This document shows positions 28,259 to 61,426 of a stretch of 64,000 nt of DNA, piece after piece. Numbering within the stretch: position 1 is the stretch's first letter; every line of letters begins with the position of its first letter. The position numbers and the translations under genes are program-made. The stretch lies in contig NZ_JAASQO010000007.1 of NCBI RefSeq assembly GCF_011762095.1, positions 1 through 64,000 on the forward strand, read 5' to 3'. This DNA comes from Parvibaculum indicum (GTDB lineage Bacteria; Pseudomonadota; Alphaproteobacteria; Parvibaculales; Parvibaculaceae). A model generated the notes under the pieces. The model did not search any database. It saw nothing but the letters and a program-made list of their open reading frames with translations, and was not told the DNA's origin.

Positions 28259-30547
28259 TTACCCCTCGACCTTCGAGAAGTCCGCGACCTCATGCAAGGC
28301 CGCGCGGATGAGGCTCAGAAGGCGCAGGCGGTTCGCGCGCACTTCCGCTTTGTCGGCATTGACGGTGACCTTGTCGAAAAACGCATCGACCGGCGCACGG
28401 AGCTTGGCGAGCGCGGACATGGCCGCGGCGAAATCCTCACGCCCGATCGCATGGCTCGCTTCGGAACGGGCTTCCTCGATCCGGTCGAACAGCGCGCGCT
28501 CCTCGTCCAGCTCGAAAAGCCCCGCATCCGGCTCGCCGCCATAAGAGGCTTCGTCCTTCTTTTCCTCGATGCGGAGAATGTTCACCGCGCGCTTGTAGCC
28601 CGCAAGCAGGTTTGCGCCGTCATCGGTGCCGAGAAAGTCGGACAACGCCTCGACACGCTTCACGATCAGCACGAGATCGTCCTGCCCTTCCAGTGCAAAA
28701 ACGGCATCGACCAGATCGTGCCGCACCCCGCGATCACGCAGATAGACTTTCAAGCGGTCGGCGAAGAAGGAGAGGAGGCTATTGCTGTTGAGCAGCACAT
28801 TGTCTACCGCTCTTGATATTCTCGCCCGCTGAATTTCATCTTTTGCTGTCGACAACGCGTCAGAGATTTTTCTGAGGCCGGAGAGATTTTCTGTAGAAAT
28901 ATCAGACGAAATACGAGCAAGAGGCGCGTCTGCTAAGTTATCGCTAACAAGCACCATAGAAGTTACGAACGCTTCGTTTAGGCGCATTCGCATTGCGCCT
29001 TCAAGAATAATACGGATCACACCCAGCGCAGCACGGCGCAGCGCGAACGGATCCTTGGAACCTGTGGGCTTTTCGTCAATCGCCCAGAAACCGACCAGCG
29101 TATCGATCTTGTCGGCGAGGGCGACGACCTTGCCCAGCGCGCTGGCGGGCACGTCGTCGGTCGGGCCGACCGGCGAATAATGTTCGGCAATCGCATCGGC
29201 GATGTCGTCGCCGAGGCCGTCGTTCCGCGCATAGTAAGCGCCCATCAGGCCCTGCAGTTCGGGGAACTCGAAAACCATCTGGCTGACGAGATCGGCCTTG
29301 GCGAGACGCCCGGCCTGTTCGGCCTTCGCCGGATCGACGCCCGGCAGGTCTTCGGCCAGCGCGCGGGCGAGCTTCGCGATGCGTTCGGCCTTGTCGCCGA
29401 CGCTGCCCAGCCCCTCATAGAACTTCACATCCGCCAGCTTCGGCAGGCGCGCTTCCAGCGTTTCCTTCCGGTCCTGATCCCAGAGGAAGCGCGCATCGGC
29501 GAAGCGGGCGCGCAGCACACGCTCATTACCGTTCACAATGGCCGCGCCGCCATCTTCCGCCTCGAGATTCGCAATCACGATGAAGCGCGGGGCAAGACGC
29601 CCATCCTTCGAGACGGCGCTCTGCGCCTCCTCAGGATGAGGGTTGTTTTTACCCGCGGCCTCACCCTGAGGAGCCTGCGCAGCAGGCGTCTCGAAGGGGG
29701 CGACACACGCGAAATATTTCTGGTTCGCGCGCATGGTGCTGGTCAGCACTTCCTGCGGCACGGACATGAATTCGTCGTCGATCCTGCCCATCAGCGGCAC
29801 GGGATATTCGATGAGCCCGGCCACTTCCGTCAGCAGCGCCTCGTCCTCGAAAAGCTGGAGCCCGGCATCCTCGGCGAGTTTCTTCGCCGCCGCATGGATC
29901 GCCTTTGCGCGGTCTTCCGTTGCGAGGATCACCTTCGCCGCTTCGAGCTTTTGCCGGTAATCGGCAAATCCCGTGACGTTGAACCCGTCCGGCGCCATGA
30001 AGCGATGGCCATAGGTCATGCTGTCCGCCGACAGCCCCTCGAACTCGAAGGGCACGACCTTGCCGCCGAAAATGCAGAGAATCGAATGAAGCGGGCGCAC
30101 CCAGCGCAAGGAGCCCGTCCCCCAGCGCATCGATTTCGGCCAGGGGAAGTTGCGGATCGCCTGCGGCACGATCTCGGCCAACACATCGGCCATTTCCCTG
30201 CCCGGCTTCTCGATGGCCGCGACATAGAACCGGCCCTTCTTGTCTTCCCGGATTTCCGCTTCCTCGATGGAGGAAAGCCCCGCCGCGCGCATGAAGCCCT
30301 CAATGGCTTTCTCCGGCGCGCCGACCTTCGGGCCCTTCCGCTCCTCGCGGACATCCGGCGTCTTTTCCGGCAGACCCTCGATGACGAGCGCCAGCCGGCG
30401 CGGCGTGGCATAGGCTTCCGCCGCACCCACGGCAACGCCTTCCGCCTTCAACGCATCGCTCACCAGCCGCTTCAGGTCGTCGGCGGCGCGGAGCTGCATC
30501 CGGGCGGGAATTTCTTCGGAAAAGAGTTCGAGCAGGAATTCGGACAT
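28259..30547 (-). CDS. glyS: Glycyl-tRNA synthetase beta subunit
   Basis: GlyS is the tRNA-recognition subunit of the bacterial alpha2-beta2 glycyl-tRNA synthetase. The 762-residue protein begins [14 protein letters not shown] and has the standard segments [49 protein letters not shown] and [20 protein letters not shown]. It is longer than usual because about 31 residues (284-315) are encoded by an inserted palindromic repeat. A second anomaly is an AT-rich stretch near 28795-29010. The partner glyQ is 977 bases away with another gene between. Confidence 0.95.
29605..29697. repeat. Palindromic repeat R2 inserted in frame inside glyS
   Basis: The left arm (29605-29642, CCTTCGAGACGGCG... to CAGGATGAGG) and the right arm (29659-29697, CCTCACCCTGAGGAG... 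to TCTCGAAGG) are near-complements. The same unit is intergenic at 36224-36310, 57153-57255 and 61324-61426. In glyS it keeps the frame and encodes about 31 residues including [16 protein letters not shown]. Confidence 0.88.
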
Positions 30548-36188: not shown

Positions 36189-36358
36189 TCATTGCGAGAA
36201 GCGAAGCGACGAAGCAATCCATCTTTCGAGACGGCCCTTCGGGCCTCCTCGGGATGAGACCTGCCTGACTTGCACCTCATGCTGAGGAGCGGCGAAGCCG
36301 CGTCTCGAAGCAGCTTCGCTTGCCGCTCCGGATCCCGGCACAGGGCCGGGATGACAGC
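36189..36358. repeat. Repeat cluster: R1, R2 and R3 units
   Basis: The gap between convergent ispB and ispE contains an R1 unit (36189-36221), an R2 palindrome (36224-36310, TTCGAGACGG... to CGTCTCGAAG) and an R3 unit (about 36328-36356, GATCCCGGC...GCCGGGATGACA). No gene is present. The hairpins may terminate transcription from both sides. Confidence 0.8.
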
Positions 36359-44734: not shown

Positions 44735-44852
44735 ACGGCGTCATCCCGGGGTGACACTGAAAAAACCGTCATTGCGAGCGCAAGCGAAGCAATCCAGTGC
44801 GTCGCGGCAAAGCGTGGATTGCGTCGTCGGCTGACGCCTCCTCGCAATGACG
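44735..44852. repeat. R3 unit plus inverted pair of R1 repeats
   Basis: The gap between convergent moaB and the methyltransferase gene contains a short GTCATCCCGGGGTGAC palindrome and two R1 units facing each other (CGTCATTGCGAGC at 44767 and CTCGCAATGACG ending at 44852). The whole 44767-44852 stretch can fold into one large hairpin and probably terminates transcription. Confidence 0.82.
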
Positions 44853-44857
44853 TGCTC

Positions 44858-48249: not shown

Positions 48250-48710
48250 AGCCGTCATGCCGGGCTCGCCCCGGCATCCATACCGACTCCGAATAACGGA
48301 ACACCTTCCACATGGACCCCGGATCAAGTCCGGGGTGACGGTCTCTGGATTTGGCAAAGCCCCGCAACGAGTGCCGGGACGACACCGAGTTTTTGACGCT
48401 TTCCGAAAACACAACAAAGACTGTCATCCTGGCACATGCCGGGGCCCAGGGGCCGCGGACACCGGACGTACCGCCCATGGATCCCGGGACAAGCCCGGGA
48501 CGACGCCGAGTTTTTGACACTTTCCGAAAACACAACAAAGGCTGTCATCCCGGCGAAAGCCGGGACCCACTCGCTTTTCCCCAGCCCGCCTAAGTCGTTT
48601 AGGGCACTTCGGAACATGCAAGGCACAATCCAATCGCACCTCATCCATATGCCGCGCCGCCAATGGGTCCCGGCTTTCGCCGGGATGACACGGAGAGGGA
48701 ATCTACGGAT
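48250..48710. repeat. Dense cluster of R3 palindromic repeats with a 56-base direct duplication
   Basis: This 512-base gap before rnhB is almost entirely repeats of the R3 type (GTCATCCCGGCGAAAGCC...GGGACCCA and its complement; ACCCCGGATCAAGTCCGGGG). Two 56-base blocks, 48374-48429 and 48495-48550, are near-identical direct copies (both contain TTTCCGAAAACACAACAAAG) 121 bases apart. No coding sequence is supported; all open frames here are translations of the repeats. Confidence 0.9.
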
Positions 48711-50639: not shown

Positions 50640-50960
50640 TCATTTGTCATTGCCGGGCCCGACCCGGCAATCCAGCGCAACAATGCGCGGCACGCGCCGC
50701 TCTGGATGCCCGGATCAAGTCCGGGCATGACAAAAAAGAATGTCATCCCGGCGAAAGCCGGGACCCAATCCACGTTTCAGCGCGTTGTGACGCGAGTGGA
50801 TCCCGGGAACAAGTCCCGGGATGAAAATGTATTTTGTGGTTACAGCAGAAAATCAAAAAGCTCTGCGTCGTCCCGGCACTCGTTGCCGGACCCATTAGCG
50901 CAGCGGTGTATCGTCGAGGCGAGTGGGTCCCGGCTTTCGCCGGGATGACAGCCATTGTTG
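50640..50960. repeat. Cluster of R3-type palindromic repeats
   Basis: The gap between convergent ccrM and mutY is filled by at least five hairpin units: CATTGCCGGG...CCGGCAATCC, GCCCGGATCAAGTCCGGGC, GTCATCCCGGCGAAAGCC with GGGACCCA, TCCCGGGAACAAGTCCCGGG and GGGTCCCGGCTTTCGCC with GGGATGACA. No gene is present. They probably terminate transcription from both sides. Confidence 0.88.
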
Positions 50961-50963
50961 TAG

Positions 50964-57152: not shown

Positions 57153-57255
57153 CTCATCCTGAGGAGGACGCGCAAGCGTCCGTCTCGAAGGATGGCGATA
57201 AGCACGGGCCTCGCCCTTCGAGACGCGGACTTGCATCCGCGCCTCAGGGTGAGGA
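57153..57255. repeat. Palindromic repeat, family R2, downstream of smc
   Basis: The left arm CCTCATCCTGAGGAGG... to GTCTCGAAGG and right arm CCTTCGAGACGC... to CAGGGTGAGG form an inverted pair of about 100 bases. It matches the unit inside glyS (29605-29697) and those at 36224 and 61324. Confidence 0.88.
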
Positions 57256-61254: not shown

Positions 61255-61267
61255 CCCCACACTCAGC

Positions 61268-61426
61268 TGTCATCCCGGCGAAAGCCGGGACCCATTGGCT
61301 CTGCGGCGACTGCCGCCTTCGCTCCTCACCCTGAGGAGCAGACGTCAGTCTGCGTCTCGAAGGGCGAGGCCCGGGCTTGCCGCCGTCCTTCGAGACGGAC
61401 GCATTCGCGTCCTCCTCAGGATGAGG
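61268..61426. repeat. R3 unit and R2 palindrome between convergent genes
   Basis: TGTCATCCCGGCGAAAGCC with GGGACCCA (about 61268-61295) is followed by an R2 unit at 61324-61426 with arms CCTCACCCTGAGGAGC... and ...CCTCCTCAGGATGAGG. This fills the gap between the hydrolase and the leftward nucleotidyltransferase-like gene; no gene is present. Confidence 0.86.

Follow-up and report, generated by a model that had tools for sequence, protein, structure and literature searches.

The window (the whole 64,000-nucleotide stretch analysed here) belongs to a 4.02-Mb genome, G000 below, and carries glyS, the gene for the beta subunit of glycine--tRNA ligase (Table 1). The identity of the gene product was established by profile search (TIGR00211, 764 bits; PF02092, 629 bits), and its closest named matches are Parvibaculum records, with P. 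sedimenti at 67%. At about residues 525-588 (window about 28790-28975) the protein has a hypervariable linker, 9-99 residues long, that cannot be aligned across many congeners, the 90% identical G004 included; its GC content is below that of the remainder of the gene in all 18 rows measured (of 26; 0.46 vs 0.64 in the window). Within glyS lies a REP-type palindromic element with further copies in the window, which also holds two other palindromic repeat families (CGTCATTGCGAGG... and TGTCATCCCGGC...) resembling CGTC-type REPs.

Table 1. Features of the glyS locus and palindromic repeats of the window (positions are those of the window).
Feature	Positions	Strand	Basis
glyS, glycine--tRNA ligase beta subunit, 762 aa, bearing the insert	28259..30547	-	TIGR00211 and PF02092 matches; ORF list
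Palindromic element of REP type, 99 bp, two hairpin units joined head to head	29602..29700	.	covariance model, fold, alignment A3
Hairpin unit 1, outer stem CATCCT/AGGATG, inner hairpin variable	29602..29638	+	two-hairpin structure over 32 copies
Hairpin unit 2, reverse orientation, outer stem with one mismatch	29662..29700	-	A3 alignment, two-hairpin structure
Net insertion of 90 bp compared with the unoccupied site of G004	29609..29698	-	DNA alignment with G004, G024, G002, G001
Intergenic head-to-head copy, between convergent genes	36220..36314	.	covariance model, gene-context survey
Intergenic copy, tail-to-tail halves	57154..57253	.	half-unit pattern, gene-context survey
Intergenic copy, tail-to-tail halves	61326..61425	.	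half-unit pattern, gene-context survey
Further palindromic repeats, two families	278-316 and 44815-44853; 48411-48690, 50730-50961, 61257-61307		

An earlier note, made from the letters of the window, had claimed that a dispersed palindromic repeat at 29605-29697 is inserted in frame within glyS and adds about 31 residues (284-315). The insertion itself is borne out by the fold of the element, by its matches elsewhere in the genome and by an empty site in a close relative, and the location is right, but the element is slightly wider than claimed and the extra segment comprises 30 residues at 283-312, so that the original figures were off by 1-3 residues. Alignment with relatives confirms the segment: its columns hold only 1-3 residues in 79/79 rows from other genomes (80 loci fetched, L087 without a row; several records are shared with the genus set), and at most one residue in 24/24 other genus genomes with a GlyS match. 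The genus set comprised 27 genomes including G000, two of which (G013 and G018) had no GlyS match, while the GlyS of G015 is split over two contigs. In the nearest relative, G004, whose GlyS is 90% identical, the site is empty and 90 bp shorter. In the solved structure 7yse, which we take to be the E. coli GlyS, the residues equivalent to 282 and 313 are direct neighbors (291 and 292). The inserted residues, sought in the GlyS of relatives without the repeat, were thus found neither in the rows nor in the congeners nor in 7yse. One of the 79 rows, L089, has 28 extra residues of its own at this turn, unrelated in sequence.

The ends of the insert are ambiguous relative to G004: the similarity between the element end AAGGATGG and AAGGACGG of that genome leaves more than one possible junction; by eye, no target duplication was seen in the alignment with relatives. 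We also modeled the segment, as had been proposed, with AlphaFold from a 28-sequence alignment (mean pLDDT 86.8, pTM 0.73). Residues 288-312 have pLDDT values below 50 and are flanked by strands 279-283 and 316-326, and the inserted segment is probably a disordered loop linking these two strands. Only one genome among those examined carries the insert, and selection on it is therefore not measurable.

The structure of the element was derived from an alignment (A3) of 32 copies, 22 from G000 (the glyS copy included) and 10 from G024, G020, and G010. Two opposed hairpin units of ~37-40 nt are separated by a spacer of variable length, giving dimers of about 95-105 bp. Each unit has a 6-bp outer stem followed by three more pairs, encloses a distinct inner hairpin that varies between copies, and its head is CCTC followed by AT or AC; no CCA tail was seen in the alignment. 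As single-stranded DNA, positions 29601-29702 fold with -33.6 kcal/mol, whereas shuffled sequences average -18.0 (z -6.4, 0/200 shuffles as good), and the glyS copy, itself part of the covariance model of the element, matches that model at 1.8e-21. No Rfam match above the gathering threshold was found within the window.

In the two-hairpin structure, 96.9% of cells are paired, 12 pairs are changed on both sides, and the covariation score of 0.286 is matched by 0/500 shuffles and reaches at most 0.038 in slid controls. The aligned copies were picked by similarity, and kinship alone may let them beat shuffles without any structure; despite this kinship, the swaps from C-G to G-C at columns 4-37 (26 and 6) and 78-113 (26 and 5, 1 unpaired) are hard to explain without pairing. 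Pair 76-115 of the second hairpin is unpaired in 13 of the 32 copies. A four-armed fold of the whole dimer, with an outer and a central stem, is the minimum-energy fold. As the conserved structure, this four-armed (cruciform) form was rejected, given its covariation score of 0.172 vs 0.286 for the two hairpins and its failure to pair columns 4-113, 37-78, and 38-77 in 10, 11, and 13 of the 32 copies, respectively; the dimer may nonetheless adopt it.

A half-unit pattern of the element has 68 exact matches in G000, against none for the reversed control pattern, and is present in 7/27 genus genomes (G000 counted). The other rich genomes are G024 (61 matches) and G020 (17), and G004 has a single match. 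A longer pattern was detected in 19/289 genomes sampled across the class, again counting G000 and with 0 matches for the controls; the repeat family is therefore scattered. We counted 43 places in G000, comprising 31 head-to-head dimers (distinct, at E below 1e-10 in the covariance model), 7 tail-to-tail pairs and 5 single halves. The copy survey scored 40/67 and 150/3293 candidates and may miss strongly decayed copies. A fuzzy half-unit search returned 130 clusters, many of them chance singles, and we retained only places backed by other pattern or model searches. The listed G000 matches lie on 9/37 contigs (C1, C2, C4, C5, C7, C8, C10, C11, and C14), with none among the matches listed on C3, C6, and C9, which indicates a regional bias.

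Gene context was surveyed for 42 of the 43 places in G000 (C11:7427 was left out), using a codon-usage gene caller trained on long ORFs of the fetched loci rather than curated annotation. Forty of the 42 places are intergenic, flanked by convergent genes in 16 cases, by co-directional genes in 22 and by divergent genes in 2; the remaining two are inside genes. As had been claimed, the window's three other copies are all intergenic. All 36 places in G024 are intergenic among the matches listed, as are 12/13 in G020, where the remaining one overlaps the 3' end of a gene. Thus, none of the 49 places examined in these two relatives lies inside a gene, and 88/91 places pooled over the three genomes are intergenic.

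The gene status of the two intragenic copies in G000 is additionally backed by homology. Besides the glyS copy, a search for other coding copies, also proposed in the earlier note, uncovered one at G000:C4:63357-63449 (L194:3358-3450), likewise in frame, in a fused hydantoinase/oxoprolinase of 1,233 residues (PF05378, PF01968, PF19278, and PF02538). Residues 805-837 of this protein (33 residues) stand against a single codon in G004, with the two sides 92 and 93% identical, and when the protein is matched to 7hk5, query residues 804 and 843 bound a gap that faces 3 residues of the chain. The element is read in a different frame here than in glyS.

A different REP dimer, with arms starting GTCATTGCCGGG, is present in frame in the GlyS of three congeners, G007 (L126), G008 (L125), and G017 (L133), near the position of residue 403 of the G000 protein, where AlphaFold predicts a loop joining helices 383-400 and 406-415. 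With a TGTC/CGTC head, a stem that starts with AT and a CCA tail, it is a putative member of the CGTC type. Two different repeats thus occupy two GlyS loops in different Parvibaculum lineages. Exact matches to this dimer number 10 in 6/27 genomes, and three of the 10 are these glyS copies. A scan of GlyS genes for exact inverted repeats (at least 11 bp), insensitive enough to leave the window's own copy unflagged, flagged G005, G007, G008, and G017 plus 7/80 other loci, and REP dimers were recognized in G007, G008, and G017. Separately, G007 and G025 (L135) have additional residues after GlyS residue 143; the two inserts are dissimilar by eye, one being glycine/alanine-rich, and no palindrome was seen in either by eye.

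The arms of the congener dimer are invariant at 60/60 columns, compared to 55/66 for the rest of the insert and 450/600 for the flanking gene, and the corresponding counts for third codon positions are 20/20, 15/22, and 106/200. Arms and rest of the insert differ with Fisher p 0.0007 (third positions, p 0.009), values computed over columns that are not independent. In a GlyS tree from 604 gap-free columns (G015 left out; some deeper nodes weak), G008 groups with G016 (0.93), which does not carry the dimer in its GlyS, and G007 with G017 (0.88). The carriers do not form one clade, and losses, repeated insertion or exchange are therefore required. A recent interspecies exchange of the entire segment could account for part of this pattern, since the insert outside the arms likewise exceeds the flanks in conservation. 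The conservation of the arms exceeds what such exchange accounts for, which suggests gene conversion or a constraint at the nucleotide level, a lead that comes from three sequences at one locus. That REP hairpins within essential coding DNA are actively kept, by conversion or by selection on the hairpin, with glyS of Parvibaculum as a repeated target, is a tentative proposal that we consider rather doubtful; these copies offer a system for testing gene conversion against selection on DNA or RNA.

The earlier note had gone on to suggest that the element is permissive to translation or even selected for it. This suggestion is not supported. Full dimers, 66 in all (30, 29, and 7 from three genomes), have on average 1.70 stop-free frames of 6, vs 2.23 after mononucleotide shuffling and 3.59 in random segments of G000 loci (genes included), which is the opposite of a translation-permissive sequence. 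Dimer lengths modulo 3 are distributed 23/26/17 for 0/1/2 (n = 66), with no preference for multiples of three. Open frames are scarce and length is unbiased, and the two insertions into genes therefore look like survivors. Two intragenic copies are too few for a test of bias, and that both are in frame is expected under a survivor effect and under targeting alike; in the glyS copy, 4/6 frames are stop-free.

We thus favor, with a probability of roughly 0.85, the reading that the glyS insert is a rare tolerated insertion of a mostly extragenic repeat. The glyS copy would have arrived after the split from G004. Most insertions into genes would break the frame or bring in a stop, and would hence be lost, whereas the one in glyS would have survived with a net length that is a multiple of three, a stop-free sequence in the needed frame and a target turn tolerant of extra residues. 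The encoded peptide is probably without a function of its own. No linked transposase of the Y1_Tnp class was found that would point to the route by which the element is mobilized. The locus offers a clean case of an extragenic repeat turned coding: a sister with 90% identity has the site empty, the target is a loop of a tRNA synthetase, and the same genome contains a second case.

Foremost among the alternatives is an element adapted to translation that spreads through genes as a harmless peptide, as Rickettsia palindromic elements (RPEs) do. Its occurrence in frame in two conserved genes, together with the different palindromic repeat in frame in the GlyS of three congeners, would fit such an element; we nevertheless hold it to be improbable, since only 2/42 places in G000 and 0/49 in the two relatives are in genes, a count that itself argues against adaptation to translation, and since open frames are fewer than in shuffled or random DNA, lengths are unbiased and the two coding copies are read in different frames. 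Highly improbable as well is a regulatory role, in which the hairpins would be retained for slowing or pausing ribosomes on the glyS mRNA or for protecting it. The strong fold of the element is consistent with this, as are the invariant third positions in the arms of the congeners' other REP (20/20 vs 106/200 in the flanks), whereas the insert under study occurs in a single genome examined, so that its conservation is not demonstrable.

That same restriction to one genome would also be expected of an assembly or contamination artefact. We regard this as very improbable indeed, given that the contig spans 230 kb, the frame is kept open, both inner hairpin sequences of the glyS copy are unique among the 68 half-unit matches, and a second in-frame copy exists elsewhere in G000. 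The reading of the palindrome as ancestral GlyS sequence or a chance palindrome, with no insertion at all, found no support and can be dismissed, as it is contradicted by its absence from 79/79 rows, 24/24 congeners and 7yse, by a family with 68 exact half-unit matches vs 0 for the reversed control, and directly by the empty site in G004.

In REPIN/RAYT systems, two hairpin units in inverted orientation form one doublet, and the RAYT (Y1_Tnp) gene is flanked by the repeat. The element described here shares the doublet of inverted hairpin units but differs in having no linked Y1_Tnp transposase. A search covering the Y1_Tnp class gave one match among the 27 genus genomes, in G000 (L141, G000:C2:325657-326019), and none in the repeat-rich G024. 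This match lies between two minus-strand ORFs that are presumably TnpB-like, and its 3.4-kb locus contains 0 copies of the half-unit pattern. Mobilization by a RAYT was rejected, as Y1_Tnp occurs in 1/27 genomes and is unlinked to the repeat. The CIR repeats of Caulobacter contain the CcrM site GANTC inside the repeat, a feature that the glyS copy does not share, GANTC being absent from 29602-29700.

The likeness to RPEs drawn in the earlier note stands in part. According to a review (PMC10969869), almost half of all RPEs in R. conorii are located within genes, each encoding a conserved peptide. Shared with these elements are the palindrome (about 150 bp; here 99), the alphaproteobacterial host and in-frame insertion in unrelated genes; the small genic share (2/42 places), the different frames and the absence of a conserved peptide set the present element apart.

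General features of REP or BIME-type repeats are all present, namely a short hairpin, tens of copies, 40/42 places intergenic and pairing in opposite orientation. The closest comparison is with the CGTC REPs of Di Nocera et al. (2013; PMC3733652), whose text describes REPs as mostly intergenic, chiefly between co-directional or convergent genes, and CGTC elements as mainly head-to-head dimers without a linked transposase. In the same text, families 1-4 have a stem of 8-9 bp, a loop of 4-5 nt and mostly a CCA tail, and the terminal tag is CGTC, with variants TGTC or CCTC and AT as the first stem pairs. Our element likewise has short palindromic units that are mostly intergenic and sometimes in genes, with head-to-head dimers outnumbering tail-to-tail pairs in G000 (31 vs 7) and no linked transposase of the Y1_Tnp class. 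Its head reads CCTC, listed there as a variant of the tag, and continues with AT or AC. It differs in its longer, branched hairpin and CCTC head, with no 8-9 bp stem, 4-5 nt loop or CCA tail. REPs inside coding regions are also described in that text, where over half occur as dimers or groups that contribute 20-30 residues and the targets include tRNA synthetases of X. oryzae, E. lithoralis, and S. alaskensis; its main text has 0 occurrences of "Parvibaculum." Among the open-licence papers listed in our searches on palindromic repeats of Parvibaculum and on intragenic REPs in tRNA synthetases, none deals with this case, judging by titles and abstract openings. In-frame REPs, some in tRNA synthetases, are thus already published (PMC3733652), and, relative to that report, the new detail is the second REP dimer, with its invariant arms, in the GlyS of the congeners.
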